Assembly: GCA_030824275.1 (NCBI GenBank)
Contig: JAVBXY010000005.1
Span: forward strand, 304,351-368,350
DNA length: 64,000 nt
Direction: 5' to 3'
Origin: Rhodocyclaceae bacterium
GTDB taxonomy: Bacteria > Pseudomonadota > Gammaproteobacteria > Burkholderiales > Rhodocyclaceae
The notes beneath the pieces were generated by a model, which had not been told where the DNA came from, ran no database searches, and saw only the letters and a program-made list of their open reading frames with translations. Position 1 is the first letter of the stretch. Each line of letters starts with the position of its first letter. The position numbers were made by a program, and so were the translations under genes. Of the stretch, positions 4,094 to 62,693 are shown one piece after another.

Positions 4094-4123
4094 CGGCCTC
4101 CCCGTGCCGCCAGCGCCGACTTT
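4061..4123 (+). repeat. 63-bp extended repeat, copy 1 (includes the tetR stop codon)
   Basis: CGCCGTAACCTCT[A]CGGGTCACCTCCGGCCTGACGGCCTCCCCGT[G]CCGCCAGCGCCGACTTT; matches 62630-62692 with 2 mismatches. Confidence 0.9.
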
Positions 4124-4124
4124 C
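4101..4124 (+). repeat. Dispersed 24-bp motif copy 1 (intergenic, convergent genes)
   Basis: CCCGTGCCGCCAGCGCCGACTTTC against consensus GCCGTnnnGCCARCGCCGACTTTT. Confidence 0.9.
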
Positions 4125-4153
4125 CCGTACCGAATCCCCAGCAGGCCTGACGC

Positions 4154-6772
4154 CTACTCCTGGTTTCGCAGCGACTCGCCGTAGTGTCGGAAGGCTTCGC
4201 GAATCGCGTCCAGTAGGTCGACTTCCTCCCAGGGTTTGGTTAGGAAGCGGAAAATCTCGCCACGGTTGATGGCATCGGTCAGGCTTTCCAGTCCGGTGTA
4301 GCCGGACAGCACCATGCGTACCGCCTTGGGGTGCATGACGCGGGCGCGGGCCAGCAGTTCCGTGCCCGACATGCCGGGCATGCGCTGGTCGGTCAGGATC
4401 ACCCCCACATCGTGTTCGGCCAGCAGGGCCAGCGCTTCCTCTCCGCTGGTAGCGGTCAATATCCGGTAGTTCTCACGCCGTAGCAGGCGCTTCACGGCTG
4501 AAAGCACATTGGCCTCGTCATCGACCAGTAATAGAGTGGATTGGGCCTCGTTGTCGACCGGTACCTGTGGCGGGCGGAAGGACATCAGGAAATGGGTCAT
4601 CTCGGCGGCCGGCAAGGGGCGGCTGATCAGATAGCCCTGGATGACATCGCATTGCAGCGAACGCAGATAGCGCGCCTGGCCCTGGTCTTCCACGCCCTCG
4701 GCGATCACTTCCAATCCCAGGCTGTGGCCGAGCGCGATGATCGCTTTGACGATGGAGGCATTGCCGCTGTTGGTGGTCATGTCGCGGACGAATGACATAT
4801 CCACCTTCAGCTTGTGCACTTCCAGTTGTTGCAGATAGGCCAGCGAGGAATAGCCGGTGCCGAAATCGTCAATCGACAGCCGCACGCCGAGCGCCTTGAT
4901 ATCGGCCAGCGAGCGGAATGACTGGTCGCGGTCCACCATCACGAAGCTTTCGGTGATTTCAAGTTCCAGCTGGTCGGGCGGGATGCCGGTATCGCGCAGC
5001 GCGGCACTGACGGATTCGACCAGCTTGCCCCGGCTCAATTGCACGGCGGAAACGTTCACCGCCGTCTGCCGTGGCGTCAACCCGGCGTCTGACCAGCGTT
5101 TGATCTGGCGGCAGGTTTCGTGCAAAACCCAGTCGCCCAGGCGGACCACCAGTCCGCTTTCTTCGGCCAGGGGAATGAACTCCCCGGGGGGAATCAGCCC
5201 CCGCTCGGGATGCTGCCAGCGGACCAGGGCTTCGAGACCGACGATCTCGCCGCTGATCAGGTCGATCTGCGGCTGGTAGTGAAGGATCAGCTCCTGGCGA
5301 TCCAGCGCACGGCGCAGATCGGCCTCCAGCGTCAGGCGCTGTTTGGCGCGCAGAGTCATCTCCGGCGAGGAGAAACGCAGGATGCCGCGGCCTTGCATCT
5401 TCGCCTGATGCAGGGCCGCATCGGCGCTGCTTTGCAGCGTGCCGGCATCCGCGCCGTCCGCCGGATACATGGCGATGCCGATGCTGGCGCCGACATACAC
5501 GCCGTGACCATCGAGTACGAAGGGCTCGGCCAGCGCATCGATCATGCGCTGCGCCAGTAGGTCGATCGAGGGCATGTCCTCGCGGGGCGTGAGGACGATG
5601 TTGAACTCGTCGCCGCCGATGCGGGCAATGCTGTCGGGGTCCGGCAACAGGCTTTGCAGGCGGTTACCTGCCTCCACCAGCAACTGGTCGCCGAGATCGT
5701 GGCCGAGACTTTCGTTGACGGTTTTGAAGTTATCGAGATCGACAAAGAGCAGGGCAAACTGCCCCTGGCTGCGCTCTGCCTGCGTGATCGAATGCGCCAG
5801 CACTTCGATGAACAGGAGCCGGTTGGGTAGCCCGGTCAGCGGGTCGCGGTGGGCCAGCACCTGATATTTCTCCTCGCTCATTTCGAGTAAGGCGGTGCGT
5901 TGCGCCACCGTATCCTCCAGCAAGCGCCGTAGGCGCGACAACTCAAGATGGGTGCGGATGCGGGCATGCACTTCATCGATGTCGAAGGGCTTGGTGATGT
6001 AGTCGGCGGCGCCAATGGCAAAGCCCCGAACCTTTTCCTCGGTGGCATCCACGACCGATACGAACACCACTGGAATGCGGTTTCCCACCGGATGCGCCTT
6101 GATGCGGCGGCAGACTTCATAGCCGTCCATGCCGGGCATCACGATGTCGAGCAGTACCAGATCGGGCGGCGACGCCCCGTCTATGATTTCCAGGGCCTTC
6201 GGCCCATTGCAGGCAACCTGGATGCGATAGTCGTTCTTCAGTGCCTCGATCAGGGCGTGCACGTTCTCCGGCACATCGTCCACCACCAGCAGGCAAGGCT
6301 GCTGTGCCGGATTGCTTGGGGCCGCCGTATCGAAGAGGAATGGGTTGCGGCGATAGCGCATCAATTCGAGTTGGGTGCGCACGCGCATCTTCAGCAGTTC
6401 GGGATTGATCGGCTTGGTGATGTAGTCGGCAACGCCCAGGGTCAGTCCGCGCGCTTCGTCGGCGGCTTCCGAGAGTGCTGTGACGAAGATCACCGGAATC
6501 GTTGCTGTCGTCGGGCTCGATTTCAGGCGCGCCAGAACCGAGTAGCCATCCATGCCGGGCATCCGGATGTCGAGCAGGATCAGGTCCGGGCGCGGCATGC
6601 GCTGCGCCAGTTCCAGAGCCTTCTCGCCGGAGGTGGCAGCAGCGATGGCGTATTCGTCGCGCAACACACTCATCAGCGCGTGCAGGTTCTCCGGGACGTC
6701 ATCGACAATCAGGATGCGGGGACGGCTATCGCCGGGGAGGGGATGTTTGTCGGTCATGGCGGGTTCATTCAT
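4154..6772 (-). CDS. Multi-receiver response regulator: REC-REC-GGDEF-EAL-REC
   Basis: Three receiver domains ([11 protein letters not shown]..., [11 protein letters not shown]..., [11 protein letters not shown]...), [38 protein letters not shown]. Confidence 0.9.
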
Positions 6773-11365: not shown

Positions 11366-11395
11366 CGCCAGCACCGATAAAAGTCGGCGCTGGCG
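11366..11395. terminator. Hairpin made by a 24-bp motif copy and a flanking inverted half copy
   Basis: CGCCAGCACCGA-TAAAAG-TCGGCGCTGGCG: 12-bp arms with one internal mismatch, located after the ppc stop. Confidence 0.5.
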
Positions 11396-11402
11396 ATACG
11401 GC
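11379..11402 (-). repeat. Dispersed 24-bp motif copy 2 (intergenic, 3' of ppc)
   Basis: Minus strand GCCGTATCGCCAGCGCCGACTTTT. Confidence 0.9.
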
Positions 11403-11439
11403 AAAAAGTGCGGCAAAAGCGCCGCGCGGCGCGCCTCGC

Positions 11440-14223
11440 TCAGCCGCTGTTGCGCAATCCGGCCGCGACGCCGTTGATGGTCAGGTGGATGCCGCGCTTG
11501 ACCTTCTCGTCTGTTGCTCCTGCCCGGTGGCGGCGCAGCAGTTCCACTTGCAGGTGGTTGAGCGGGTCGAGGTAGGGGAAGCGGTGGCGGATCGAGCGGC
11601 GCAGGAGCGGGTTGTCGGCCAGCAGTTCGGCCTGACGGGTGATCGCCAGCAGCGCATCGATGGACGCCTGCCACTCGGCCTTGATGCGCGGGAAGATCGC
11701 GTTGCGCAGCGCCTCGTCCTTGACCAGTCCCGAGTAGCGCTCGGCGATGCCGATGTCACTCTTGGCCAGCACCATGTCCATGTTCGACAAGGTGGTGCGG
11801 AAGAAGCCCCATTCGTTGTGCATGCGGCGCAGCAGGTCCATGCCGGCTTCGCCCTGTTCCGCTTTCCACGCAGCCACCGCCGCGCCGAAGCCGAACCAGC
11901 CCGGCAGCATCAGGCGACATTGCGCCCAGGAGAAGACCCAGGGGATCGCCCGCAGGTCTTCGATGGCGGTGGTCTTCTTGCGCGAGGCCGGGCGGCTGCC
12001 GATGTTCAGTGCGGCGATTTCGGAAATCACGGTGGATTCCCAGAAATACTGCTCGAAGCCCGGCGTCTCATACACCATGCCCCGGTAAGCCTTGAAGGCG
12101 GCGGCGGAGAGGAACTCCATGGCGTCGAGGAATTCCGGCGCCGGGTTATCGTGCTGGTGCGGCAGCAGCGTCGCCTCCAGCGTTGCGGCGGCGAGGATTT
12201 CCAGGTTGCGGCGGCCCAGTTCCGGGTTGGCGTATTTCGAGGCGATGACTTCGCCCTGTTCGGTGATGCGGATCTGGCCTTGCACCGCACCCTGCGGTTG
12301 GGCCAGGATGGCCTGGTAGCTGGGGCCGCCGCCGCGACCGACGGAACCGCCGCGACCATGGAACAGACGCAGGGTGATGCCGTGGCGGGCGAAGACGCGG
12401 GTCAGTTCGATTTCGGACCGGTACAGCGACCAGCCCGAGGTGAGGAAGCCGCCGTCCTTGTTGCTGTCGGAATAGCCGACCATGACTTCCTGCAAGCCGT
12501 CCCGCGAACCGAGCAGGCGGTTGTAGACCGGCAGCGAGAACAGGCGGTCCATGATCGCCGCCGAGTTCTCCAGGTCGCCGATGGTCTCGAATAGCGGCAC
12601 GATGTTCACGTCGAGGGCATTGTCCAGCGGCCGCAGCAGGCCCACTTCCTTGAGCAGCACCGCGACTTCGAGGATGTCGGAGACGCCGTCGGTTTTCGAG
12701 ATGATGACGTTGTCGATGGCTGCCTTGCCGTAGCGCAGATGGATCGAGCGGGCGGTGTGGAAGATCGCCAGTTCGCCCTGGGTCTCTTCCGAATAGACGA
12801 CGCCGGGCGCAGCGAGCGGGCGCGGCGTGGCGAGTTCCTCGCTGAGCAGGGCGATGCGGGCCTCTTCGTCGAGGCGCAGGTAGTCGATGCCGGGGCGAGC
12901 GACAGCCAGCAGCTCGGCGACGGTGCGGGCATGGACATCTGAGTTCTGCCGCAGATCGAGCGGCGCCAGATGGAAGCCAAAAATCGACACTGCGCGGCGC
13001 AGCCGGCGCAGGCGACCGCGACCGATCAACGCGGCGTTGTGGGCCAGTAGCGAGCGATGCAGCACATCGAGATCGGCGGCGAACTCGGCGGCTGTGGCAT
13101 AGGGCGCGGCTTCGGCGACGGCGTGGCGCAGTGGTTCCAGTCCATCGAGGACGCGGGCGGTGGCCGCGAGCCGAGCGTAGAGGCCGGTGATGGCGCGGCG
13201 GTAAGGCTCGTCTTCCCGGTGCGGGCTCCTGTCCGGCGAGGCGGCGGCCAGCGCTGCCAGTTCATCACTGACGTCGACGAGGATGGAGGTGGACGACAGC
13301 GAGGCGCCGAGGCGATGCAGTTGGTCGAGGAAATAGCCGATGGCCTTGCGGCTCTGGGCGCGCATGGCGGCTTCGAGGATTTCGGCGGTGACGAAGGGAT
13401 TGCCGTCCCGGTCGCCGCCGATCCAGGAGCCGGGGCGCAGGAATGGTTTGAGTTCGTCCCCTGGCCACTTGGCAACGTGCTTTGCCAAGTGGTCTTCGAG
13501 CCCGTTGTAAAGGCGCGGCAGTTCACGCAGGAACGTGGTGTCGTAGAAGGAGAGGGCATTGGCCACTTCGTCCATCACCGAAAGCTTGGCGCGACGGAGC
13601 ATGCGCGTTTGCCACAGAGTTAGTACGGCACGGCGAATGGCTTCTTCGTGTTCTTCGTGTTCTTCCGGCGTGAGCTGGCTGCGGTCGCGCTCGTCGAGCA
13701 GGCGGGCGATCTTCCACTGGCAATCGAGGATGCTCTTGCGCTGCACTTCCGTCGGGTGGGCGGTGAGCACGGGCCGCACTTCGGCGCTGGCGAAGAAGCT
13801 TGCCAGGCGCGGCGCATCAATGCCGGCGTCGCGGGCACGCTGCACCGAGTGCACCAGGCTGCCTTCACGGGGCGGTGAGCCGGCCAGGGCGTGGGCGCGG
13901 GCGCGGCGGATGTGCTGTTGGTCCTCGGCGATATTGGCCAGGTGCGAGAAATAGCTGAAGGCCCGCGCGACCTGCGTCGTCATCGGATTCGGCAGGGCGC
14001 CGAGCACGGCTTCCAGTTCGCGGCTGGCAGCATGGTCTTCGTCGCGATGGAAACGCAGGGCCAGCTGGCGGATGCGTTCGACGATGTCGAAGGCATCAGC
14101 GCCTTCCTGGTCGCGCAGCGTGTCGCCGAGGATGCGGCCGAGCAGGCGGATGTCCTCCTTGAGCGGGGCTTCCTTGGCATCGCTGCTTACGTCACTGTGG
14201 GCGTCGTGCGGGGTAGTGGTCAT
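11440..14223 (-). CDS. ppc: Phosphoenolpyruvate carboxylase
   Basis: [47 protein letters not shown]-terminal ...[14 protein letters not shown]; start at MTTTPHDAH. Confidence 0.96.
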
Positions 14224-14768
14224 CGGACTTGGCTCGGTTGGGCACTCAGTTGGGCGATATGTTGACGGGAGGTTTCGAGGGCGCGCTCGAGATAGGCGCC
14301 GTAGAAGTCGGCGGTGCGGAAGCCGACAATGGCTTCGGCGCTGGCCTGCCCCCTGGGGTCGTAGAACATCAGGGTGGGGGCGAAGCTGGCCTTCTGGGCT
14401 TTGGAAAAGTCGGCGCTGGTGGTACGGCGACCGGCGAAATCCACCAAGGGCTCGCGCTCGTCCATGTGGATTTCGCGGATCACCGCCTGCGGCGTCTTTT
14501 CCTTCGACAGCGGCAGCAGGTATTCGCGGCGCAGTTTTTCGCACCAGGAACAATCGGCGCGGGTGTAGAGCACCACCACGGGCACGCCGTCCTTTGCCGC
14601 CAGCTTCGCATCCGCAGCGAGATCGCGGGCCGTCGGCAGGCCGTGGGGCGAGTCCTTGGCGACGACCGGGGTGGTCCCGGTCACGACAATGGCGCATGCT
14701 AGAATCGCCAGCCAAATCAAGCCCCGGCCGGCATTTTCAGGCTGCCGGCGCAATAAATTCTTCCACAT
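14220..14768 (-). CDS. Thioredoxin-fold protein, exported or membrane anchored
   Basis: N-terminal hydrophobic segment, [24 protein letters not shown] (CSWC active site), [12 protein letters not shown]; start MWKNLLRRQ. Confidence 0.8.
14405..14428 (-). repeat. Dispersed 24-bp motif copy 3 (intragenic, thioredoxin-fold gene)
   Basis: Minus strand GCCGTACCACCAGCGCCGACTTTT; encodes RRTTSADF. Confidence 0.85.
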
Positions 14769-17581: not shown

Positions 17582-18763
17582 ATGCGCGCCCTGTTCTGGT
17601 TGCTGGTCCTGGCTGCCTCGGCCGTCGGCCTCGCGCTGGCCGCCCGTTACAACGACGGCTATGTGCTGCTGGTGCTGCCGCCCTGGCGCGCCGAACTGTC
17701 GCTGAATTTCTTCCTACTGCTTGCCGCAGTCGGCTTCATCGTTCTCTATCTGCTGGCGCGGGCCGTCAATCACACCCTGGCGCTGCCGCGTGCAGTGGCC
17801 GAATTTCGCCAGCGTCGCAAGCACGAAAAAGCCGAGGCCGCCCTGCGCGATGCCTGGCGTCTGCTCCAGGAAGGGCGTTACGGCCATGCCGTGAAGAGCG
17901 CGGAAAAAGCCTGGGTCGGTCATCCGGCCCCCGGCATCGTCGCCCTGGCCGGCTGGAAAGCCGCCCATGCCCTGCGCGATCCGCAGCGGGAGACCGAATG
18001 GGCTGCGCGCATTCATGCCTTCGATGCCGAAGGCATGTCCTCGGCACGACTGATGACCGAAGCAGAATTCGCCCTCGACGGACGCCGTTTCGACGACGCC
18101 CGCGCCGCTCTAGCGAAACTTGCCGAGAAAGAAGGCCGTCACATCGCCGCCCTGCGCCTCGCCCTGCGTGCCGAGCAGGGCCTGGGCAACTGGCGTGAAG
18201 TGGCGCGCCTCGCCCATCAGCTCGAAAAGCACAAGGCCCTGACGCCCGAACAGGCGGCGCCATTGCGCCGTCGCGCCGTGCGCGAGGCCCTGCGGGCCCT
18301 GAATACCGATCCGGTGGGCCTGATGCGTTACTGGCGCGAACTGGAGGACGCGGATCGCGCCGAACCGGCGCTGGCGCTGGAAACCGCCCGTGCCCTGATG
18401 GCCGCTGGCGATTGCCGCGAAGCCCAGCGTGTGATCGACGACGCCCTCGAAGAACATTGGGATGCGACCCTGTTGCTGGCCTATGCAGAATGCGCCAGCG
18501 GCGAGGCCGGCAATGCCATCGGTCGCATCGCCCAAGCCGAGAAGTGGCTGGCCCAGCGCCCCCGCGATGGCGCCCTGTTGCTGACCCTGGGCCGCCTGTG
18601 CCGCCAGCAGCAATTGTGGGGCAAGGCCCGCAGCTACCTCGAAGCCTCGCTGGCCATCGACGTCACCCGTGCCGCCCATGTCGAACTCGCGCAATTGCTC
18701 GAGCAGCTCGAAGAGTCGGCGCTGGCGACACGGCACTACCGGGCGGCGGCGCTGCTGAACTGA
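17582..18763 (+). CDS. hemY: HemY protein, TPR-containing
   Basis: Two N-terminal TM segments (MRALFWLLVLAASAVGLALAARYNDGYVLLVLPPWRAELSLNFFLLL) and TPR-like helices; hemCDXY synteny. Confidence 0.88.
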   Translation: MRALFWLLVLAASAVGLALAARYNDGYVLLVLPPWRAELSLNFFLLLAAVGFIVLYLLARAVNHTLALPRAVAEFRQRRKHEKAEAALRDAWRLLQEGRYGHAVKSAEKAWVGHPAPGIVALAGWKAAHALRDPQRETEWAARIHAFDAEGMSSARLMTEAEFALDGRRFDDARAALAKLAEKEGRHIAALRLALRAEQGLGNWREVARLAHQLEKHKALTPEQAAPLRRRAVREALRALNTDPVGLMRYWRELEDADRAEPALALETARALMAAGDCREAQRVIDDALEEHWDATLLLAYAECASGEAGNAIGRIAQAEKWLAQRPRDGALLLTLGRLCRQQQLWGKARSYLEASLAIDVTRAAHVELAQLLEQLEESALATRHYRAAALLN

Positions 18764-18794
18764 TCGTCCGCATTCGTCGGCGGGGTGCTGTCCC

Positions 18795-18818
18795 GCCGTA
18801 TCGCCAACGCCGACTTTT
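18795..18818 (+). repeat. Dispersed 24-bp motif copy 4 (intergenic, convergent hemY / DUF1631 genes)
   Basis: GCCGTATCGCCAACGCCGACTTTT. Confidence 0.9.
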
Positions 18819-25041: not shown

Positions 25042-25901
25042 TTCTTTTCTCCTTGCAGCCGACGTTCGGCAGCCTCGAGGGTATTGGTGAGCAGCATGGT
25101 GATGGTCATCGGGCCGACACCGCCGGGCACCGGTGTGATGGCGCCGGCCACGTCCTTGGCGGAGTCGAAGTCCACGTCGCCGCAGAGTTTTCCATCGGGA
25201 AGCCGGTTGATGCCGACGTCGATCACCGTGGCGCCTGGCTTGATCATGTCGCCGGTGATCATCTTCGGCCGGCCGACGGCGGCGACCAGGATATCGGCGC
25301 GGCGGGTGTGGAAATTCAGGTCCCTGGTCTGCGAATGGCAGACTGTGACAGTGCAGCCCTGGGCCAGCAGCAATAGGGCCATGGGCTTGCCGACGATGTT
25401 GCTGCGGCCAACGATGACGGCTTCGGCGCCCTTGAGCGCCGTGCCGACGGATTCGAGCATCTTCATCACGCCATAGGGCGTGCAGGGAATGAAGCGCGGA
25501 TTGCCCTGGGCCAGGGCGCCGACGTTCTCGGCATGGAAACCGTCCACATCCTTGTCGGCGTCGATGGCTTCGAGCACGGCGTCGGAATCGAAATGCTTTG
25601 GCAGCGGCAACTGGACGAGGATGCCGTGCACGCTGGCATCGGCATTCAGTTCGGCGATCTTGGCGAAGACTTCTTCCGGCTTGGCGTCGGCGGCGTAAAC
25701 GAACTTCAGCGAACGAATGCCCGCCTTTTCACAGCCGGCGACCTTGTTGCGTACATAGACGGCGGAGGCGGGGTCTTCGCCGACGAGGATCACAGCGAGG
25801 CAGGGCGTCACGCCCTTGGCGCTCAGTGCGGCGGCGCGCTCGGCGAGTTGGCCGCGCAGCGTGGCGGAGAGGGCGTTACCGTCGATGATCTTGGCTGTCA
25901 T
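25038..25901 (-). CDS. folD: Bifunctional methylenetetrahydrofolate dehydrogenase/cyclohydrolase
   Basis: [62 protein letters not shown]. Confidence 0.97.
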
Positions 25902-26515
25902 GCTGCTTCTGCCGTTTGAAAGTCGGCGCTGACGGCACGGCGACCGGCCTCGAAGGCCTTGCGGTTCAATTCGACCATGTGCGGTTTGCGCGAGGAGAAA
26001 CGCTTGAGGATGGATTCCAGCAGCACCTCGGCGGAGAAGGGCAGGTGGTCGGCGATGGCACCGAGCATCACGGTGTTGCCCAGGCGCATGTCGCCCAGGT
26101 CGAGGGCGATGCTCATGGCGTCGAAGGCGTGCACCTCGATGCCCTTGGCGCGAATCTCGGCCACGGGATCGGCGGGGTAATCGTAGAGACCGCCATCCAC
26201 CACCGGCGGCACCAGGCGCGCGGTGTTCATCAGGATCATGCCGCCGGGCTTTAGGAAGTGTGACCAGCGCAGGGACTCGGCGGCTTCGAAGCCGACGATG
26301 AGGTCGGCTTCGCCGGCGGTGATCTGCGGCGACAGCACCTTGTCGCCGAAGCGCAGGTGGGAGGAGACCACGCCGCCGCGCTGGGCCATGCCGGCGACTT
26401 CGGTTTTCTTGGCGTCGTGGCCGAGGGAAATCGCCGTCTCGGCAAGAATCTCGGTGGCGGTCATGACGCCCTGGCCGCCGATGCCGACGACGAGGATATT
26501 GGTGACGTTGTTCAT
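25898..26515 (-). CDS. iorB: Indolepyruvate:ferredoxin oxidoreductase beta subunit
   Basis: [24 protein letters not shown]...[21 protein letters not shown]; adjacent to iorA. Confidence 0.92.
25918..25941 (-). repeat. Dispersed 24-bp motif copy 5 (intragenic, 3' end of iorB)
   Basis: Minus strand GCCGTGCCGTCAGCGCCGACTTTC; encodes RRAVSADF. Confidence 0.85.
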
Positions 26516-32720: not shown

Positions 32721-33791
32721 ATGAAGCACATCACCGACGACGTCCGCATCCGGGAGATCAAGGAACTCTCGCCCCCTGCCCATATCCTGCGCGAGTTTCC
32801 AACCACCGATGCGGCGGCGGCGACCACCTACGAGGCCCGCCAGGCCGTACATCGCGTGCTGCACGGTGCCGACGACCGCCTCGTCGTCGTCGTCGGTCCC
32901 TGCTCGATCCACGACTACGATGCGGCCATGGAATACGCCCGCCGCCTCAAGGAGGCCGTGCCGACATACGCCGATGATCTGCTGTTGCTGATGCGCGTCT
33001 ATTTCGAGAAGCCGCGCACCACGGTGGGCTGGAAGGGCCTGATCAACGATCCGCACATGGATGGCAGCTTCAAGATCAACGACGGTCTGCGCCTGGCCCG
33101 CAAGCTGCTGTGGGACATCAACGAACTGGGCCTGCCGGCGGCCACCGAGTTCCTCGACACCATCACGCCGCAATACACGGCCGACCTCATCAGCTGGGGG
33201 GCCATCGGCGCCCGCACCACCGAATCGCAGGTGCATCGCGAATTGGCCTCCGGCCTCTCCTGCCCGGTCGGTTTCAAGAACGGCACCGACGGCAACATCA
33301 AGATCGCGGTGGACGCCATCAAGGCCGCTGCCAGTCCGCACCATTTCCTCTCGGTGACCAAGGCCGGCCATTCGGCCATCGTTTCCACCAACGGCAACGA
33401 GGACTGCCACGTCATCCTGCGCGGCGGCAAGAGCACCAACTACGATGCCGCCTCGGTGGATGCGGCCTGTATCGAACTCGGAAAGTCGGGTCTGGCGGCA
33501 CGGGTCATGGTGGACTTCTCGCATGCCAACAGCAGCAAGCAGTTCAAACGCCAGATCGACGTGGCGCAGGACGTCGGTACGCAACTCGCCGCCGGCGACG
33601 AGCGCATCTTCGGCGTCATGATCGAATCCCATCTCAACGAAGGCCGCCAGGATTTGACCCCAGGCAAGCCGCTGGACTATGGCGTCTCCGTCACCGATGC
33701 CTGCCTGGGCTGGGCCGATACCCTGACCGCGCTGGACATTCTGGCCAAGGGCGTGCAGCAGCGTCGTCTGGCACTGGCAGAAAAGAACTGA
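32721..33791 (+). CDS. aroG: 3-deoxy-7-phosphoheptulonate synthase
   Basis: DDRLVVVVGPCSIHDYDAAMEYA, MRVYFEKPRTTVGWKGLINDPHMDGSF, GARTTESQVHRELASGLSCPVGFKNGTDG. Confidence 0.96.
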   Translation: MKHITDDVRIREIKELSPPAHILREFPTTDAAAATTYEARQAVHRVLHGADDRLVVVVGPCSIHDYDAAMEYARRLKEAVPTYADDLLLLMRVYFEKPRTTVGWKGLINDPHMDGSFKINDGLRLARKLLWDINELGLPAATEFLDTITPQYTADLISWGAIGARTTESQVHRELASGLSCPVGFKNGTDGNIKIAVDAIKAAASPHHFLSVTKAGHSAIVSTNGNEDCHVILRGGKSTNYDAASVDAACIELGKSGLAARVMVDFSHANSSKQFKRQIDVAQDVGTQLAAGDERIFGVMIESHLNEGRQDLTPGKPLDYGVSVTDACLGWADTLTALDILAKGVQQRRLALAEKN

Positions 33792-33795
33792 GTTC

Positions 33796-35292
33796 ATGAC
33801 CGGCCGCCTGTTTTTCGCGTTGCTGGCGGCCACGCTGGTCTTCCGCGTCTGGCTGGGCGCGGCGTTTCCGATGAGCGGCGACGAAGCCTATTTCGTCTGG
33901 TGGGGCTGGCAGCCGGACTGGGGTTTCTACGACCACCCGCCGATGATCGGCTGGTGGCTGGCGGCCCTGTCCTCGGTTAGTCACGCGGAAGCCTTGCTGC
34001 GTCTGCCGGTGATTCTGCAACCGGCGCTGCTGGCGCTGGCAGTGCGCTGGGCGTTGCCGCATCTGGTGCGGGGCATTGAAGGCGAACGACGCGACTGGAT
34101 CGCTACCCTGGTGCTGCTGGCGCCGGTGAATGTCTGGAATGTCTTTATCACCACCGACACGCCGCTGGTCTATTTCAGCGTGCTCTCTGGCCTAGCCTGG
34201 CTGCGCGCGGCCAAGGACGATGATCTGCGTTGGTATCTGGTGGCCGGCCTGTTGCTGGCGGGTGCCGTGCTGTCCAAGTATTTCGCCGCCATCCTCGGCT
34301 TCGCCTACCTAGTGGACGTGCTCGTCCGGCGCCGGGGCTTCAGGGGCCTGATCATCGCCTACGCCTGCACGCTGCCGGCATTGCTGCTGATGGCCTGGTG
34401 GAACAGCGAACACTGCTGGCCCAACTACATGTTCAACTTCGTCAACCGCCACGGCGACGCAGGCTGGTCGGCGAAAACCCCGCTGCTCTACGCCGTGACG
34501 CTGCTCTACATGTTGACGCCGCCTGTCCTGTGGCTGGCGCTGCGTAATCGCCGTCCCGCCAACGCCGACTTTTCCGTGCCCGGCCTCGGCGTGCTGGCCT
34601 GGGTGCCCTTCCTGCTCTTCGCCGTCCTCTCGCTGGTCAAGCAGATCGGCCTGCACTGGCTGCTGTCCTTCGTCCCCTTCGCCCTGATCTGGGTCGGCCT
34701 GCGCCTGCGGCCGGCGAGCCTGGGGCGCCTGGGCCTGTTTTTCGCGGGCTTCGCCGCCCTGCACATCGGCGCCATCCTCGTCGTCTCGCGCCTGCCGCTG
34801 GAAACCTGGCAGAAGACCCGGCTCTACGACGGCATCGTGCTGACTTTCGAGCATGAGGCGCTGGCTAAGGAATTGGAGCCCTTCAGGAAGGATTGGACTC
34901 TGGCCATGGACGGCTATTCCAATGCCGTCACCTTGGGCTACAACCTGCGCCAGTACGTCGCGGTTTTCGGCGAGGCTTCGAGCCACGCCCGCCACGACGA
35001 CATCCTCACCGACTTCCGCGCCCTGGCCGGCAAGAACATCCTGATCCTGCGCAAGTCGGCGCCCACGGAGGGTGATTACGCCAAATACTTCCGCAGCGTC
35101 AGCGTCGATAGTTTCGAAGTGCGTGGTGCCCGCTTCTGGCGTGTCAAGGGCGAGGGCTTCGATTACCCGGCCTATCGCGACACGGTTTTGGCCAGCGTGC
35201 GCAGGAAGTACTACGCCGTCCCGCCCTGGCTGCCGCAGATGGCCTGCTACTTCTGCGACCGCTATTTCCCCGGTGAGCCATGCCGCCGCTGA
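33796..35292 (+). CDS. GT39 / ArnT-like membrane glycosyltransferase
   Basis: SGDEAYFVWWGWQPDWGFYDHPPMIGWWLA; many TM helices; typical of the PMT_2 family. Confidence 0.85.
   Translation: MTGRLFFALLAATLVFRVWLGAAFPMSGDEAYFVWWGWQPDWGFYDHPPMIGWWLAALSSVSHAEALLRLPVILQPALLALAVRWALPHLVRGIEGERRDWIATLVLLAPVNVWNVFITTDTPLVYFSVLSGLAWLRAAKDDDLRWYLVAGLLLAGAVLSKYFAAILGFAYLVDVLVRRRGFRGLIIAYACTLPALLLMAWWNSEHCWPNYMFNFVNRHGDAGWSAKTPLLYAVTLLYMLTPPVLWLALRNRRPANADFSVPGLGVLAWVPFLLFAVLSLVKQIGLHWLLSFVPFALIWVGLRLRPASLGRLGLFFAGFAALHIGAILVVSRLPLETWQKTRLYDGIVLTFEHEALAKELEPFRKDWTLAMDGYSNAVTLGYNLRQYVAVFGEASSHARHDDILTDFRALAGKNILILRKSAPTEGDYAKYFRSVSVDSFEVRGARFWRVKGEGFDYPAYRDTVLASVRRKYYAVPPWLPQMACYFCDRYFPGEPCRR
34550..34573 (+). 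repeat. Dispersed 24-bp motif copy 6 (intragenic, GT39 gene)
   Basis: GCCGTCCCGCCAACGCCGACTTTT; encodes RRPANADF. Confidence 0.9.
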
Positions 35293-36697: not shown

Positions 36698-37942
36698 TTA
36701 CTTCTCGTCGCCGTCGAGCGGCCACAGGGCGTGGCTATCCAGCATGATGCGATAGCGCGCTTCGTTGGCATCCAGTCGGGCCTGGGTTGCCGCCAGTCGG
36801 GCATCGATGGCTTGGCGACGGGCCTGTTGCAATTCCCCGAACTGCCCTTCACCGAGGCGCCATGCCTTGTCCAGCAGGTCGGCATTTGCGTCCATGCGTT
36901 GCGCCACGTCGCGCAGCCGGCGCCACTGTTCCCGTGTCGATTCCATCTGGCGCCAGGCGCGACGGATTTCATTGTCGACGCGAGCGCGGATGCCTCCCTC
37001 CCTGGCTGCCGTGGCCTCGGCTTCACCGCTGGCCACGTCCACGGCGGCGGCACGATAGGAACCCGGCAGGGGGATACTCAGGGACAGGCCGAGAACTTTC
37101 TCCTGGCCGTCCCGTTCGCGACTGACCTGCAGGCCCAGCGTCGGATCGGGCACGCGGTCGGCATCGGCGCGACGCACCAAAAGTCGGCGCTGGCGGGACG
37201 CCGTCGCCGCCAGCTTGAGTTCGTGGTTGTGTTCCAGGATGCGTTCCCGCCAGCTGTCGATGCTGCCATCCAGCGTCATTGGCTCCGTGGTCTCGATATT
37301 GGCTGGCAGCGGCAGGGAGGGGAAGTGCTGAGCGAAATCGGCGACGGCCCGGGCCAGAGCATCGACGGCTAGCGCGTAGCGGGCCTCGGCCTGTTGCAAC
37401 TGGGCTTGTGCCTGGTGAAGATCAAGGGCGGCGGCATCGCCCAGTTCGACGCGTCGCGCCGCCACATCGGCTTGTCGACGCAGGATATCGCGCTGGGCCT
37501 CCCATTGCCGGGCCGCTTCCCGTTCGCGCAGCCAGTCGAACCAGCTACGCAGCAGCAGTCGGCCGGTCTCGTGCAGGGCATCGCCGGCGGCAGCATCGGC
37601 CATTTCCTCGGCAACGGCGCCGAGTTCCGTATCTGTCGCGGCCTTGCCCGGCATGCGCAGGGCGCGTTCCAGGGCAATGTCCTGCTCCGCATACTGACGC
37701 GGCAATGAGAGATCGCGGCGGCGCTGGGCGCCGATCTTGACCACGAATTCATGCGGTCCTGCTTCGAACTGGCGACGCTGGCCGGCAGCCGTGCGCAACC
37801 CGGCACGCGCGGCGAGGACATCCGGATGGGCGTAGAGGGCGCGGGTCACCGCTTCGACAGGGGGCAGGTCTTGCGCGTTGGCGGTCACCGCGTGCGTGGG
37901 AATCGCTGCCGCCAGCAGTAGCATCAGGATGCTGGGTTTCAT
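36698..37942 (-). CDS. TolC-family outer membrane protein (CzcC-like)
   Basis: Signal peptide, coiled-coil rich OEP repeats, adjacent to CzcA/CzcB-type genes. Confidence 0.85.
   Translation of the reverse strand: MKPSILMLLLAAAIPTHAVTANAQDLPPVEAVTRALYAHPDVLAARAGLRTAAGQRRQFEAGPHEFVVKIGAQRRRDLSLPRQYAEQDIALERALRMPGKAATDTELGAVAEEMADAAAGDALHETGRLLLRSWFDWLREREAARQWEAQRDILRRQADVAARRVELGDAAALDLHQAQAQLQQAEARYALAVDALARAVADFAQHFPSLPLPANIETTEPMTLDGSIDSWRERILEHNHELKLAATASRQRRLLVRRADADRVPDPTLGLQVSRERDGQEKVLGLSLSIPLPGSYRAAAVDVASGEAEATAAREGGIRARVDNEIRRAWRQMESTREQWRRLRDVAQRMDANADLLDKAWRLGEGQFGELQQARRQAIDARLAATQARLDANEARYRIMLDSHALWPLDGDEK
37179..37202 (-). repeat. Dispersed 24-bp motif copy 7 (intragenic, TolC-like gene)
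   Basis: Minus strand GGCGTCCCGCCAGCGCCGACTTTT; encodes SRQRRLL. Confidence 0.85.
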
Positions 37943-45422: not shown

Positions 45423-45442
45423 GGCGCCAGGCTGCCTCGTTC

Positions 45443-45466
45443 GCCGTCCTGTCAGCGCCGACTTTT
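45443..45466 (+). repeat. Dispersed 24-bp motif copy 8 (intergenic, convergent genes)
   Basis: GCCGTCCTGTCAGCGCCGACTTTT. Confidence 0.9.
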
Positions 45467-46074: not shown

Positions 46075-47517
46075 GTGCTGAGCCTGCTGCTGCTGACGCC
46101 GCTGCTGGGAGCTTTGGCGGTGGCAATGCTGCCGCAGCAGCGAGGCGAATGGGCGCGTCTTACGGCATTGGGTACTGCCGCACTTACCCTCCTCTTTGCT
46201 GGCTGGATGGCCTCGCGCTTCGACAGCAGCGTTGGCGGTTTCCAGTTTTTCGAGACTCATGCCTGGAACCCGCGCCTGGGCTCGGCCTTCTCCCTCGGTG
46301 TCGACGGTTTGTCCATGGCGCTGGTGGTGCTTGCCGCGCTGCTCTTCCTAGTTGCCCTTGCCGTCTTCCGCGTTCCCCGTGCCGCCGCCCGCCTGCACTA
46401 CATGTTGCTGCTGGCCCTGGAAGCGGCGGCCATCGGCGTCTTCATGGCCCGCGACTGGTCGCTGTTCTATGTGTTCTGGGAACTCACGCTGATCCCGCTG
46501 TTCTTTCTCATCGAACGCCTCGGTGGTGCCCGGCGGCAGCGCGCCGCACTGAATTTCGTGCTCTACACCCTGGGCGGTTCGGTCTTCATGCTGGTGGCCT
46601 TGCTTCTGCTGTATGACGCAGCGCCCGGCCACAGCTTCGACATGGCCTCCATGGCCGCCGGTGGTCGTGGCCTGGGCGTGGAAACCCAGACCATGATTTT
46701 CCTTGGCCTCTTCGTCGGTTTCGCCGTCAAGATGGGGCTCTTCCCCTTGCACGGATGGATGCCCTTGGTATACGCCGAGGCGCCGCCCGCCGTGCCGGTG
46801 ATCTCCTCCGGCGTACTGCTGAAGATGGGCGCCTATGGCGTGCTGCGGGCCATCGAGACCTTGCCCGGCGCCGCACAGGCGCTGTCGAGCGCGCTTTCGT
46901 GGCTGGCGCTGACCAGCATGCTCTACGGTGCCCTGCTGGCCTGGCAGCGGCGCGACCTGATTGGCATGGTCGCCTATGCCTCGATCTCGCACATGGGCGT
47001 GATGCTGCTCGGCGCCGTGACCCTGCTGCCTGCCGGCTTCAACGGCGCCATGCTGCAAATGCTGGCGCATGGCCTCGCCGCCGGCGCTATGTTTCTGCTC
47101 GTCGGCATGCTGGCCGAACGCGGGGGCGACTATGCCGGTGTGATGAATCGGGCACCCCGCCTCGCGGCGCTGCTGATCCTGGCGCTGCTGCTGGGCCTCG
47201 GCTTGCCAGGCAGCTTCGGTTTTGTCGCCGAGCTGCATGTGCTGAGTGCCGGCTTCGGCCTGTGGGGCGGACGCGTGGCCCTGATCTCGCTGGCGCTGCT
47301 GGTCGGCGCCGCCTGGGTGCTGCGCGAGATTACCCGCATCACTGGCGAGTCGATACCCAATGCATTGCCTGTCGCCGATCTCAGCCACCGCGAAACCCTG
47401 GCCAGCGGCGGCCTGCTGCTGCTGATCCTCGCTCTGGGCTTCGTGCCGGGACCGATGCTGGTGCTGGCCGGCAACACCGCGCGACGCATGGCGCAACTTT
47501 TCGTGCCCATGCCATGA
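46075..47517 (+). CDS. NuoM-like proton-translocating membrane subunit (DabA-associated)
   Basis: FYVFWELTLIPLFFLIERLGG, FAVKMGLFPLHGWMPLVYAEAPPAVPVISSGVLLKMGAYG; TM5 Glu and TM7 Lys retained; GTG start. Confidence 0.88.
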   Translation: MLSLLLLTPLLGALAVAMLPQQRGEWARLTALGTAALTLLFAGWMASRFDSSVGGFQFFETHAWNPRLGSAFSLGVDGLSMALVVLAALLFLVALAVFRVPRAAARLHYMLLLALEAAAIGVFMARDWSLFYVFWELTLIPLFFLIERLGGARRQRAALNFVLYTLGGSVFMLVALLLLYDAAPGHSFDMASMAAGGRGLGVETQTMIFLGLFVGFAVKMGLFPLHGWMPLVYAEAPPAVPVISSGVLLKMGAYGVLRAIETLPGAAQALSSALSWLALTSMLYGALLAWQRRDLIGMVAYASISHMGVMLLGAVTLLPAGFNGAMLQMLAHGLAAGAMFLLVGMLAERGGDYAGVMNRAPRLAALLILALLLGLGLPGSFGFVAELHVLSAGFGLWGGRVALISLALLVGAAWVLREITRITGESIPNALPVADLSHRETLASGGLLLLILALGFVPGPMLVLAGNTARRMAQLFVPMP

Positions 47518-50500
47518 ACGAACCCATGAGCGAAAATCAGCACGATTTCCGTGCTCGTTTCGATCACTGGATCGAACACCTTGAACACGTGCTGCCGGGA
47601 CAGGCCTCGATCCGCGATTTCGTGCACCACAACACCTTGCACGGCTACGCCCATCTGCCCTTTCATGAAGCGCTGGCCGCTGCCCGACGCGAGCTGGGGA
47701 TCGCCGGCTACTGGTCGGCCGAGCGTTTCCGCGCCGAGCATGCGGCGGGCCGTATCGCCGACGCCGACATCAATGCCGTTCTCGACACCGTGCCCGACAT
47801 CGACGCAGTGCTGGCCGGTGCCATCACCCGCCGCCAGCTCTGGAACGCCGCCCTGCGTCAGGATTGCGGCCCGCTCTCCGTCGCGCGCCTGTGCTGGGAA
47901 TTGGACGAGGGCCGCGATCATCGCAGTGATGCGGGGGCCGCCCTGTGGGTGACCTGCGTCGAACTGGCGCTGGGTGACGTTACTGAGTTGGCGATGGCCG
48001 AGGAGCGCTTCTCCGTATCCGGCGCGACCAGCTTGCGCGAACTGATCCGGCAATTGGGCGGCGAGGACATCCTCGACGCCGTGCGCGGCGAACTGGTGCG
48101 TCATCTCGCCTCGCATCTCGATCTCGGCATCGCGCCCTGGCACAACCCGGCGCGGGGCGAGGGTTTCTACGCCGCCTGGCGACGTCTGTCAGCCCGCGAT
48201 CCGGCCTGGGTGCTCGGCTCGCAGAACGAGGCCCAGGCCGAGATTGCCGAATTGCCTGCCGATCCCGCCGAATTCATCGAGGCCGAACTGCGCCGCATCG
48301 GCTTCGCCGAGACGCAGTGGCAAGCCGTGCTGCGTCGCCTGGCGCTCGACCTGCCCGGCTGGTCCGGCATGTTCCTCTGGCGCTCGCAACGCCCGGGCTA
48401 TGGGCATACCGAGGACGTGCCCGTGCACATAGCCGACTACCTGGCCGTGCGCCTCCTCGTTGAGCGTCTCGCCGCTGATGCCGTGGCCCGCCGTCTCTGG
48501 GGTGTGCCCGCTCGCCTGGCCGAACTCGCCGCCTATTTCGATCAGCATCCGGTGGAGTTGCGCCTCCGTCTGGCCTGCCATCGCGGTGAACTGCCCGAAT
48601 CCCTAGCCAGTCGCGTGCAGCAGATGGAAGCCCCCGGCGAGCGTCCCGAAGAAAGCCGCGCCGCCTGGGCCGAATTGGCGCACGAAGCTGCCGCCAGTCT
48701 CGATCACGAATTGCTGCGCAAGGCACGGGTGGCCTGGCCGCTGTATCGTCTGGCGCGACAACTCGGCATGGATGCTGCCGCCCTGCATGCCCTCGGTCGG
48801 GATGGCATCGCCGCCTTGCACGCCGCGTTGGCCGAACTCGATGCCGACCGCATGGGTGCCGTGTGGCTCGGCGCCTACGAGCGGCACTACGCCGAACAGG
48901 TGTTCACCGCACTGGCGGCCAACCACGGTCGCACCACAGTTTCCACTAGCACCAGCGCGCAACTGGTGCTGTGCATGGACGACCGCGAGGAGGGCTTCCG
49001 CCGCCATCTCGAAGAAACCGATCCGCGCCTGGAAACCCTTGGCGGTGCCGCCCACTTCGGTGTGTTCCAGAATTTCTACGGCGTCGATGACAGCGAGCCG
49101 ACCGCCCTGTGTCCGGTGGTGCCGGTAGTTGTTCGCCCCGCTCATGCAGTGCATGAGACTTTGCGCGACGAGACCGAATTGCCGTCCCGCCAGCGCCGAC
49201 TTTTTCAACGGAGCCGCTATCGCCGCATCGAAAACGAAGCGACGCGCCTGGCGCCTCTCGCCGGTACGTTGACCTCCTTATTGCTGGCGCCGAAAGCCCT
49301 TGCCGCGCTGCTGCTGCGCAGCTTCGCACCGGCCATCCTGCGCGATGTGCCGCCACCGCCAGCGACGCGCCTCGATCTGACGGCGGCGGAGAACACGCCA
49401 GCGACACCGGATTCACCCCGGCGCGGTTTCACCGACGATGAACAGGCCGAGCGGATATTCAACTTCCTCGCCAATCTCGGCCTGACCAAAAATTTCGCGC
49501 CCCTGGTGGCGATCATCGGCCACGGCTCCTGGAGCCAGAACAATCCGCACCTCGCCGCCTACGATTGCGGCGCTTGCGCCGGGCGCCATTCCGGCGCCAA
49601 TGCGCGGCTCTTCGCCGCCATGGCCAATCGTCCCGAGGTGCGCGCACGGCTCGCGGCGCGGGGGATCGACATCCCCACGGCTACCTGGTTCCTCAGCGCC
49701 GAGCACAACACCGCCGACGATGGCATGCAGTGGTACGACACCGAGGACATCCCGCCTGCCCTGGCGACGGCCTTCGTCACACTCGCCGCAACGGCGCGGC
49801 AGGCCGGCGCACGCCACGCCGTGGAACGCTGTCGGCGGCTGATGTCGGCGCCCCTCGATGCGCCACCGGAGCAAGCCTGGCGTCATGTCGCTGGTCGCCG
49901 CCGCGATTTTGCCCAGCCGCGCCCGGAACTCGGCCACGTCACCAATGCCGCCGCCTTCGTCGGCCGCCGCAGCATGAGTCGCGGCGCTTACTTCGACCGT
50001 CGCGCCTTCCTGATTTCCTACGATCCGTTCAACGATGAGGACGGCCGCATCCTCGAACGCCTGCTGCTGGCCAACGGCCCGGTCGGCGCTGGCATCAGCC
50101 TCGAATACTATTTTTCGTCGGTGGACAACGAGCGCTTCGGTTGCGGCACCAAGACCATGCACAACATCGTCGGCGGCCTTGGCGTCTATGCTGGTGGCGG
50201 TGGCGACCTGCGCACCGGCCTGCCCTGGCAGATGATCGAAATCCACGAGCCGATGCGCCTGTTGATCGTGATCGAGCAGACCCTTGAGAGCATCACCGCC
50301 ATCTACCAACGCCAGCCGCCCTTGCAGGAACTGGTTGGCAAGGGCTGGGTGCTGCTGGCGGCGAAAGACCCCGTGAGCGGTGCGATCCATCGCTTCGATC
50401 CGGCACGCGGCTGGTTGTCCTGGCAAGGCGAGGCGACATTGCCGACGGCCACTGATTCGCTGGCCTGGATCGCCGGTCGTCGCGATCCGCTGCCACCGGC

Positions 50501-50531
50501 CCTGCTGTCGCGGCCACTGGAGGCGGCATGA
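47514..50531 (+). CDS. dabA: DabA (DUF2309) inorganic carbon transporter / beta-carbonic-anhydrase-like subunit
   Basis: HVLPGQASIRDFVHHNTLHGYAHLPFHEAL, QLVLCMDDREEGFRRHLE (CxD), IIGHGSWSQNNPHLAAYDCGACAGRHSGANAR (His then Cys 15 residues later); ORF-track N-terminal extension rejected. Confidence 0.93.
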   Translation: MNEPMSENQHDFRARFDHWIEHLEHVLPGQASIRDFVHHNTLHGYAHLPFHEALAAARRELGIAGYWSAERFRAEHAAGRIADADINAVLDTVPDIDAVLAGAITRRQLWNAALRQDCGPLSVARLCWELDEGRDHRSDAGAALWVTCVELALGDVTELAMAEERFSVSGATSLRELIRQLGGEDILDAVRGELVRHLASHLDLGIAPWHNPARGEGFYAAWRRLSARDPAWVLGSQNEAQAEIAELPADPAEFIEAELRRIGFAETQWQAVLRRLALDLPGWSGMFLWRSQRPGYGHTEDVPVHIADYLAVRLLVERLAADAVARRLWGVPARLAELAAYFDQHPVELRLRLACHRGELPESLASRVQQMEAPGERPEESRAAWAELAHEAAASLDHELLRKARVAWPLYRLARQLGMDAAALHALGRDGIAALHAALAELDADRMGAVWLGAYERHYAEQVFTALAANHGRTTVSTSTSAQLVLCMDDREEGFRRHLEETDPRLETLGGAAHFGVFQNFYGVDDSEPTALCPVVPVVVRPAHAVHETLRDETELPSRQRRLFQRSRYRRIENEATRLAPLAGTLTSLLLAPKALAALLLRSFAPAILRDVPPPPATRLDLTAAENTPATPDSPRRGFTDDEQAERIFNFLANLGLTKNFAPLVAIIGHGSWSQNNPHLAAYDCGACAGRHSGANARLFAAMANRPEVRARLAARGIDIPTATWFLSAEHNTADDGMQWYDTEDIPPALATAFVTLAATARQAGARHAVERCRRLMSAPLDAPPEQAWRHVAGRRRDFAQPRPELGHVTNAAAFVGRRSMSRGAYFDRRAFLISYDPFNDEDGRILERLLLANGPVGAGISLEYYFSSVDNERFGCGTKTMHNIVGGLGVYAGGGGDLRTGLPWQMIEIHEPMRLLIVIEQTLESITAIYQRQPPLQELVGKGWVLLAAKDPVSGAIHRFDPARGWLSWQGEATLPTATDSLAWIAGRRDPLPPALLSRPLEAA
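49181..49204 (+). repeat. Dispersed 24-bp motif copy 9 (intragenic, dabA)
   Basis: GCCGTCCCGCCAGCGCCGACTTTT, an exact consensus match; encodes PSRQRRLF. Confidence 0.9.
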
Positions 50532-52015
50532 ATCCGGCGATGCTCAACATCTTCCTGTCCCTGCTCTGGCTGCTGCCGCTGTTTGCCGCGCTGGCGATAG
50601 GCGCGCGCATGCTCGGTGGCGCGACAGGCGACGCGGCGGAACCCGGAACAGCACGCTGGTCTACCTTCACCGCTGCATCCGGCTTTTTGTTGCTGGCGGC
50701 AATGGATGTCATGGCCCTGCTGCACGGCGCACCCGGCCGCGTCGAGTTCGGTGACTGGTTCGCCAGCGGCGATCTCAGTCTGCCGCTGGCCGTGCTGGCC
50801 GACGCCCGCGCCCTGGCCTTCGCCACGCTGGTGCAATTGATCGGCTGGATCGTGCTGCGTTTCTCGCGCACCTACCTGCACCGCGAAACCGGCTATCACC
50901 GTTTCTTCCTCGGCATGAATCTGTTCATGGCCGGCATGCAGCTCATCGTCCTCGCAGGCGATGGCGCGCTGACTTTCGTCGGCTGGGAACTGGCCGGCTT
51001 CAGCTCCTGGTTGCTGATCGGCTACGACCTGCCGCGCCCGGCGGCCACCGGCAACGCGCTGTTTGCCTTCATCACCAACCGCATTGGTGATGAAGGCTTC
51101 ATCCTCGGCCTGGCCCTGGCCTTCCTCTGGCTCGGCAGCAGCGACTGGCTACAATTGAGCCAACACAATCTCGACAAGGTTTCGGCGCGCATGCTGCTGT
51201 TCGGCTTCGTCATCGCCGCCTTCGCCAAGTCGGCGCAACTGCCTCTGTCATCCTGGCTGCCGCGCGCGCTGGAAGGGCCGACGCCGTCCTCGGCGATCTT
51301 CTACGGCGCGATCATGGTGCACGCCGGCATCTGGTTGCTGATCCGCCTCGAACCGGTGTTCCTGCGCGTGCCCGACATCATGGTCCAGGTTGCACTCTTC
51401 GGCGCCGCCACGGCCTTGTGGGCGACGCTGGCCAACCGCAGCCAGGGCGACGTCAAGACCTCGCTGGTTTTCGCCACGCTGACCCAGCTCGGCCTGATGG
51501 TGCTGGAGATCGGCCTCGGCCTGTTCGACCTGGCCTTCGTGCACATGCTGCTGCACGCCACCTGGCGCGCCTGGCAATTCCTGCTGGCGCCGTCCTACAT
51601 GGCGCGGGTGGATGGGCCGGCGCGGGAAAGTCCCTGGCTCGACCGGCTGCTGGCCCGCTGGCCGGAAAGTCGGCGCTGGCTATACGGCGCTTCCCTGCAA
51701 CGTGTCTGGCTTGAACCCCTGACACAGACCGTCGTCATGGACCCGGTGCAGACCATTGGCCGCGATCTCGCCGGCTTTGACCAGCGGGTGATGCGTCCCT
51801 TGCTCGGTGAGCGCGGCCCGGCTGCCCGGCTGTTGAGCTTCGTCGCTGGCCGCTGCGCGGCACTGGAGGAACGACTGACGCAACTGGCCAGTTCCGGTCG
51901 CGCCACCCAGTTGCTGCGCGCTGCCGCCGGCTGGTTCCTCGAAATCGAGGCCTTGCTGGAACGGCCCCGCTATCTGCTGCTGATGATCGCGGCGACCTTC
52001 ATGGTGATCCTGTGA
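50528..52015 (+). CDS. NuoL/DabB-like proton-conducting membrane protein
   Basis: TFVGWELAGFSSWLLIGYDLPRPAATGNALFAFITNRIGDEGFILGLA, FAKSAQLPLSSWLPRALEGPTPSSAIFYGAIMVHAGIWLL. Confidence 0.87.
   Translation: MNPAMLNIFLSLLWLLPLFAALAIGARMLGGATGDAAEPGTARWSTFTAASGFLLLAAMDVMALLHGAPGRVEFGDWFASGDLSLPLAVLADARALAFATLVQLIGWIVLRFSRTYLHRETGYHRFFLGMNLFMAGMQLIVLAGDGALTFVGWELAGFSSWLLIGYDLPRPAATGNALFAFITNRIGDEGFILGLALAFLWLGSSDWLQLSQHNLDKVSARMLLFGFVIAAFAKSAQLPLSSWLPRALEGPTPSSAIFYGAIMVHAGIWLLIRLEPVFLRVPDIMVQVALFGAATALWATLANRSQGDVKTSLVFATLTQLGLMVLEIGLGLFDLAFVHMLLHATWRAWQFLLAPSYMARVDGPARESPWLDRLLARWPESRRWLYGASLQRVWLEPLTQTVVMDPVQTIGRDLAGFDQRVMRPLLGERGPAARLLSFVAGRCAALEERLTQLASSGRATQLLRAAAGWFLEIEALLERPRYLLLMIAATFMVIL
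51665..51688 (-). repeat. Dispersed 24-bp motif copy 10 (intragenic, NuoL/DabB-like gene)
   Basis: Minus strand GCCGTATAGCCAGCGCCGACTTTC; the coding strand reads ESRRWLYGA. Confidence 0.85.
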
Positions 52016-61858: not shown

Positions 61859-61866
61859 CGACCATC

Positions 61867-62616
61867 ATGTTCAAGTCCATTTCCGTTCGCCGTTCCCAGG
61901 GCTCGCAATACATTCCCGACCCGCGACAGGCCCAGCCGGCCGGATTTCGCGGCAAGCCACTGATCGGCGAGGCCGCCTGCGCTGCCGGCTGCGGGCGTTG
62001 TCAGGAGGTCTGCCCGAGCCGCGCCATCACGCTGAGCCCGGTGCAAATCGACCTCGGACGCTGCGTGCTGTGCGGCGATTGCGAGCTGGCCTGCCCAAGC
62101 GGAAAGATCGGCTTCGACAATGATTTCAAGCTCGCTGCCACCGAGCGTGAGGGGCTGCTGATCAGCGCGGCGCGTCCGCACATCGATCCGGTCAAGGTCT
62201 CCGCCGAATTGCACAAACGCTTCGGCCGCTCGCTCAAGCTGCGCTCGGTGTCGGCCGGCGGCTGCAATGCCTGCGAGATGGAAATCAACGCGCTGGGTAA
62301 TGTGAATTTCGATATTGGCCGCTATGGCATCGATATCGTCGCTTCGCCGCGCCATGCCGATGGCCTGGTGCTGTCCGGCCCGATCAGCCGCAACATGACG
62401 GCGGCCCTGCAAATCTGCTGGGATGCGATGCCGGCACCGAAACTGGTGATTGCCGTCGGCGCTTGCGCCATTTCAGGGGGCGTGTTCGCCGACAGCGAAG
62501 GCGTTGATCGCCGCTTTCTGGAGACCGTCAAGCCGACGCTCTATGTGCCGGGCTGCCCCGCCCATCCACTGAGCTTCATCTCGGGAATCCTCGATCTGCT
62601 GGGAATTTCCAGCTAG
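61867..62616 (+). CDS. HyfH-HyfI-like fusion: N-terminal 2[4Fe-4S] ferredoxin domain plus NuoB-like small subunit
   Basis: CAAGCGRCQEVCP, CVLCGDCELACP; then GGCNACEMEINAL...VGACAISGG...VPGCPAHP. Confidence 0.9.
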   Translation: MFKSISVRRSQGSQYIPDPRQAQPAGFRGKPLIGEAACAAGCGRCQEVCPSRAITLSPVQIDLGRCVLCGDCELACPSGKIGFDNDFKLAATEREGLLISAARPHIDPVKVSAELHKRFGRSLKLRSVSAGGCNACEMEINALGNVNFDIGRYGIDIVASPRHADGLVLSGPISRNMTAALQICWDAMPAPKLVIAVGACAISGGVFADSEGVDRRFLETVKPTLYVPGCPAHPLSFISGILDLLGISS

Positions 62617-62629
62617 TCGCAAGCCGTGT

Positions 62630-62692
62630 CGCCGTAACCTCTTCGGGTCACCTCCGGCCTGACGGCCTCCCCGTTCCGCCAGCGCCGACTTT
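62630..62692 (+). repeat. 63-bp extended repeat, copy 2 (between hyfI-like and chrA)
   Basis: CGCCGTAACCTCT[T]CGGGTCACCTCCGGCCTGACGGCCTCCCCGT[T]CCGCCAGCGCCGACTTT; 61/63 identical to 4061-4123. Confidence 0.9.
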
Positions 62693-62693
62693 T
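62670..62693 (+). repeat. Dispersed 24-bp motif copy 11 (intergenic, convergent genes)
   Basis: CCCGTTCCGCCAGCGCCGACTTTT. Confidence 0.9.

Follow-up and report, generated by a model that had tools for sequence, protein, structure and literature searches.

Hundreds of copies of a 26-bp word are scattered on both strands of the genome of this Rhodocyclaceae bacterium, and the word is quite likely a DNA uptake (self-recognition) sequence, whose reader is probably a minor pilin of the type IV pilus, ComP- or FimT-like in kind. This interpretation draws on the abundance of the word on both strands, its genus-level dialects, its change through substitution while positions stay fixed, and a placement resembling that of known uptake sequences. 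The consensus TCGCCGTNYCGCCAGCGCCGACTTTT was obtained from 117 aligned sites in ~464 kb (13% of the genome), the sample on which the detailed statistics on the word are based; it is non-palindromic, carries ~37 bits, and its information drops to about zero immediately beyond either end. True sites scored between 20 and 46, the interval from 10 to 20 was empty, and the reversed sequence never exceeded 10. The unit therefore starts two bases further 5' than the 24-bp motif described in the sequence-only reading, and the core reported there as invariant, CGCCGACTTT, is nearly so, the copy at 18711 reading CGCCGACTCT.

In the window, that is, the whole stretch of 64,000 nucleotides that was analysed, a search allowing up to three mismatches yielded 12 clear copies, where dinucleotide shuffles predict 0.02, in agreement with the earlier estimate of essentially zero chance matches. 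The coordinates and strands of the eleven copies reported before were all confirmed; a twelfth, at 18711(-), had been overlooked and lies in a HemY-type gene, raising the clear genic copies from the six claimed to seven. The five intergenic copies, four of them in convergent gaps, were recovered unchanged with independent gene calls. The strong copies scored 33-45, and one additional weak copy scored 20.2 on a scale reaching ~46. The copies are as follows:

4099-4124 (+), convergent gap, with a longer repeat fused on the 5' side
11379-11404 (-), intergenic, with tandem genes on either side
14405-14430 (-), within a thioredoxin-like gene, 14220-14768(-)
18711-18736 (-), close to the 3' end of a HemY_N gene, 17582-18763(+)
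18793-18818 (+), convergent gap, inverted relative to the copy at 18711
25918-25943 (-), 3' end of a POR-family (iorB-like) gene, 25898-26515(-)
33481-33506 (-), the weak copy, within a DAHP synthase gene, 32721-33791(+)
34548-34573 (+), within a PMT_2 glycosyltransferase gene, 33796-35292(+)
37179-37204 (-), within an OEP (TolC-like) gene, 36698-37942(-)
45441-45466 (+), convergent gap
49179-49204 (+), within the dabA gene, 47514-50531(+)
51665-51690 (-), within a NuoL/DabB-like gene, 50528-52015(+), beyond the region conserved with solved homologues
62668-62693 (+), convergent gap, with the longer repeat of the copy at 4099 fused to it

Conservation of the word at the protein level is ruled out, as the sequence-only reading had argued, because all six combinations of frame and strand occur. 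The odd in-frame peptides found in the affected proteins ([16 protein letters not shown], RRxxSADF, SRQRRL) are explained as by-products of the word.

Genome-wide, the 15-base core GCCARCGCCGACTTT had 353 exact matches and its reversed control none, while the 22-base form CGTNNCGCCAGCGCCGACTTTT had 780 matches with up to three mismatches against 3 for the reversed control; the 780 copies divide into 397 and 383 between the strands, without orientation bias. Simple local duplication, which had been named as an outcome that would overturn the idea of a genome-wide word, is not the pattern. Within the 464-kb sample, in which genes were called with a simple codon-usage finder, genes cover 93% of the sequence yet hold 68% of the copies, so that 37 of the 117 copies are intergenic where 8.3 were expected (p = 4e-15). 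The excess is strongest in convergent gaps (11 copies against 0.7 expected, p = 2e-10), and divergent gaps hold about what was expected (3 against 2.7); the density is 0.19 copies per kb within genes, and it comes to 4.0 for convergent, 1.2 for tandem and 0.28 for divergent gaps. Genic copies lie in the same orientation as their gene in 32 cases and in the opposite one in 48 (p = 0.09), and every frame is used, with one avoided. Spacing along a 300-kb stretch is marginally more even than random (CV 0.79, against a 95% range of 0.80-1.21 for random placement), and the largest word-free gap of that stretch is the ribosomal-protein operon (S10-spc-alpha, L144:1-14437). In Haemophilus influenzae, 65% of the uptake signal sequences (USS) are found inside ORFs, which cover ~86% of the genome (PMC2346458).

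The same or a closely similar word is abundant in several related genera, as expected for a functional word. Among 150 relatives screened, it was enriched in nine genera of a single family, which the names of matching records identify as the Rhodocyclaceae. Copy counts reached 827 in G008, 718 in G001, 631 in G068, 501 in G079, 417 in G063, 364 in G019, 328 in G045 and 219 in G044, with lower yet raised counts in G065 (59) and G023 (47). In the rest of the order covered by this screen the word stayed at chance level, and each of 368 further genomes from across the class had 0-2 copies. Exact matches in named records were mostly from Rhodocyclaceae (Sulfuritalea, Rugosibacter, Sulfurisoma, Propionivibrio and Rhodocyclaceae MAGs). 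On a tree of argJ, the motif-bearing genomes form two clusters that require 3 changes of motif status against 9.2 for shuffled labels, and at least two of the three are forced by well-supported branches. Exact copies were also seen in 106 stretches filed as viral contigs, which could be phage, prophage or misfiled host DNA. A k-mer excess in the motif-free genome G018 was traced to a local YD-type (Rhs-like) repeat region.

At least four dialects of the word occur among the related genera. The form used by G044 contains GCGTCGACTTTT, the one preferred by G019 and G079 begins with TGCCGT and accepts replacement of the C of GACTTT, and G065, in a 70-kb sample, has a form resembling GGCGTNYCGCCANGGCTGACTTTC. 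Orthologous copies differ in dialect at one and the same position: at the argJ site, the same codons are written as GCCGTACCGCCAGCGCCGACTTTT in the genome studied here (G000) and as ACCGTCTCCCCAGCGTCGACTTTT in G044 (...CCAGCGCCGACTTTT versus ...CCAGCGTCGACTTTT), and the codons found there in relatives that lack the word are unrelated. Likewise, at one orthologous position of a gene encoding 427 amino acids, G000 has CCGTCCCGCCAGCGCCGACTTTT and G065 has CCGTACCGCCACGGCTGACTTTC (CGCCAGCGCCGACTTTT versus CGCCACGGCTGACTTTC), and in a third gene the position occupied in G000 holds the form proper to G019 and G079 in those two genomes. Such switching in place requires a reader that acts in trans and has changed its preference, and it is hard to reconcile with the plain inheritance of a repeat.

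A reader acting in trans, which the dialects imply, could also be a protein that organises the chromosome or associates with the nucleoid, or a component of a recombination or repair system that recognises the word along the chromosome. This is the main rival, since it shares the formal properties of an uptake sequence, and a footprint that is sharp and rich in information, repeated hundreds of times at fairly even spacing, would suit it; nevertheless, we regard it as less likely than uptake, the most parsimonious account, and, on balance, improbable. In the relative G019, whose main contig measures 2.56 Mb and for which sampled GC skew defined the replichores, 35 copies lie on the leading and 33 on the lagging strand, and the copies are uniform along the chromosome (p = 0.79). 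Uniformity would agree with a chromosome-binding protein, but the lack of replichore bias and of clustering at the origin or terminus separates the word from Chi and KOPS on the one hand and from parS and matS on the other, with which it shares only being a short word repeated in a genome. The partition-site and Chi/KOPS-like options raised earlier are thus unsupported, and the absence of strand skew is the outcome proposed there for a DUS-like (DNA uptake sequence) word. Moreover, a non-palindromic 26-mer would be an unusual site for a nucleoid protein, genic copies alter amino acids, and copies pile up in convergent gaps, all of which count against this alternative.

A second alternative, that the word is a tiny mobile or REP/MITE-like element inserting as a 26-bp unit, or the remnant of one, appears very unlikely. 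Its sharp boundaries could be read that way, but a 26-bp insertion would shift the reading frame, and in all 30 genomes compared the argJ alignment has no gap at the site, nor has it one against solved homologues. Of 56 distinct genic sites for which a motif-free homologue was available, 37 align to it gap-free, although these pairs are not fully independent, and the remaining sites show varied length differences of -10 to +8 residues, as loops would. Differences of 8-10 residues at a few genic copies are what an insertion might leave, and those copies (net -8 and -10) may have arrived together with an indel; the predominantly gap-free alignments nonetheless contradict mobile insertion, and copies appear to arise mainly through substitution, with a minority showing indels. 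The change of dialect in place at orthologous copies is a further point against an inserted unit. REP and BIME sequences are likewise short, interspersed and partly intergenic, but in this genome the word lacks self-complementarity and the palindromic or inverted ends of REP/MITE elements, and it is written by substitution within genes.

Longer repeated structures were observed around some copies, and among them a fused repeat and the hairpins of genus g20 are the other features that would speak for a mobile element. At three places in 364 kb, the 5' side of the word is fused to a repeat, CGCCGTAACCTCTWCGGGTCACCTCCGGCCTGACGGCCTCCCCGT; this repeat contains a small interrupted palindrome around GGCCTGACGGCC and may be a separate REP-like element. 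Another repeat, GCTCGACCGCCYTGTAGCGCAGTWGYTTCATCAGCGCCGACTTTT, was seen twice with the right half of the word only. In genus g20 alone, some copies pair with an imperfect inverted copy to make a 49-bp hairpin, which was matched at 14 places in 380 kb (L168:6159-6400 and further loci of G019); some of these matches stand in tandem arrays in which a 54-bp unit is repeated up to five times. The repeats in the present genome are located as follows:

4055-4124 of the window, CGCCGTAACCTCTWCGGGTCACCTCCGGCCTGACGGCCTCCCCGT repeat with the word
62624-62693 of the window, CGCCGTAACCTCTWCGGGTCACCTCCGGCCTGACGGCCTCCCCGT repeat with the word
~293323-293392 of the contig (L158, C16), CGCCGTAACCTCTWCGGGTCACCTCCGGCCTGACGGCCTCCCCGT repeat with the word
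L145 near 1537 (C16:21537) (-), GCTCGACCGCCYTGTAGCGCAGTWGYTTCATCAGCGCCGACTTTT repeat
L146 near 7862 (C16:47862) (-), GCTCGACCGCCYTGTAGCGCAGTWGYTTCATCAGCGCCGACTTTT repeat

The g20 hairpins and the strong enrichment in convergent gaps might instead suggest a transcription terminator or another RNA element, which is still harder to sustain, since 68% of the copies are genic, in either orientation and in all frames, and the word has no self-complementarity; around the intergenic copy at 45441, the one examined, no terminator was called. A product of chance, composition or assembly, conceivable for a draft of 38 contigs that is 85% complete, is of negligible probability and is refuted by the 0.02 copies expected in the window, by the 353 core matches against none in the control and by the recurrence of the word in single-contig genomes of other genera.

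The machinery that an uptake sequence would require was examined through ComEC, prepilins and the minor-pilin cluster, none of which was exclusive to motif-bearing genomes. ComEC was found in 22 of 22 genomes, motif-bearing or motif-free, and G000 encodes a minor-pilin cluster of a canonical type IV pilus with PilE-like, FimT-like, PilV, PilW, PilX-like and PilY1-like proteins. The PilE-like protein passes the curated cut-off of the Pfam family ComP_DUS (46.4 against 27.3 bits, E = 7.6e-12), and pilins of this family were detected in 10 of 11 motif genomes and in 18 of 18 others searched (28 of 29 in total). Competence and pilus genes are therefore present, as an uptake sequence would predict, but neither ComEC nor ComP_DUS discriminates between genomes with and without the word, so that the ComP_DUS pilin is a candidate receptor and not evidence for function. 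The net charge of these pilins, with many loci missed, was uninformative as a marker. The one motif genome without a ComP_DUS match is G044 (98% complete, 330 contigs), in which only two prepilins were recognised; this dialect-bearing genome may have lost competence, or its assembly may lack pilin genes. In the genome studied here, a copy of the word lies inside the leader peptide ([24 protein letters not shown]...) of a prepilin gene, L211:3429-4166 (+).

Uptake sequences are known from two other families. Like the DUS of Neisseriaceae, whose receptor is ComP, the word is abundant, non-palindromic, both genic and intergenic and found at gene ends, it has genus-level dialects, and the genome encodes a ComP_DUS-family pilin. 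However, it is an unrelated and longer word (26 bp) in another family, its receptor is only a candidate, and ComP_DUS pilins occur here in motif-free relatives too. The neisserial DUS is GCCGTCTGAA, and the letters GCCGT that it has in common with the present word may be due to chance. Eight DUS dialects have been described in Neisseriaceae (PMC3630211). With the USS of Pasteurellaceae, the word shares a long extended motif, an excess outside ORFs, the existence of more than one version and a copy number of similar order, the H. influenzae USS being modelled as 31 bp (PMC7811141) with ~1300 copies (PMC5217627); nonetheless, it is unrelated to AAGTGCGGT or ACAAGCGGT. The receptor proposed for the USS is another minor pilin, ComN/PpdA (PMC12616744). 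A length of 26 bp is long for the footprint of a pilin, which is a point against the uptake reading, although the modelled USS of H. influenzae is longer still.

If the word is an uptake sequence, cells would import DNA via the type IV pilus, and a surface receptor, probably the ComP- or FimT-like minor pilin, would favour fragments bearing the word. Recombination of imported fragments into the chromosome would then spread and maintain the copies, which would settle wherever protein or promoter constraint permits, and a shift of receptor preference in a lineage would be followed by its copies, giving rise to dialects. Import, receptor and drive are what we infer; the counts, the presence in relatives, the lack of strand skew and the com/pil genes all support the earlier proposal of a genome-wide functional word, with an uptake sequence as the first option.

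According to an earlier description (PMC3630211), uptake sequences are confined to Neisseria and Pasteurellaceae, and in the open-access literature we found neither an earlier report of one in Rhodocyclaceae nor a report of natural transformation in the motif-bearing species. Taken together, our results make it fairly likely that Rhodocyclaceae have an independently evolved or deeply diverged system of uptake-specific transformation, with a 26-bp word in at least four dialects, a minor pilin as its reader and groups of DNA exchange defined by it. If true, Rhodocyclaceae would follow Neisseriaceae and Pasteurellaceae as the third such family, now among environmental betaproteobacteria and with an unrelated word, which would imply that uptake specificity evolves repeatedly, also outside host-associated bacteria. 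Besides, the dialects would offer a new natural series of receptors and words in which to study the origin of uptake specificity, its shifts and its part in isolating species, and DNA tagged with the appropriate word might transform groundwater and wastewater bacteria that are hard to engineer.
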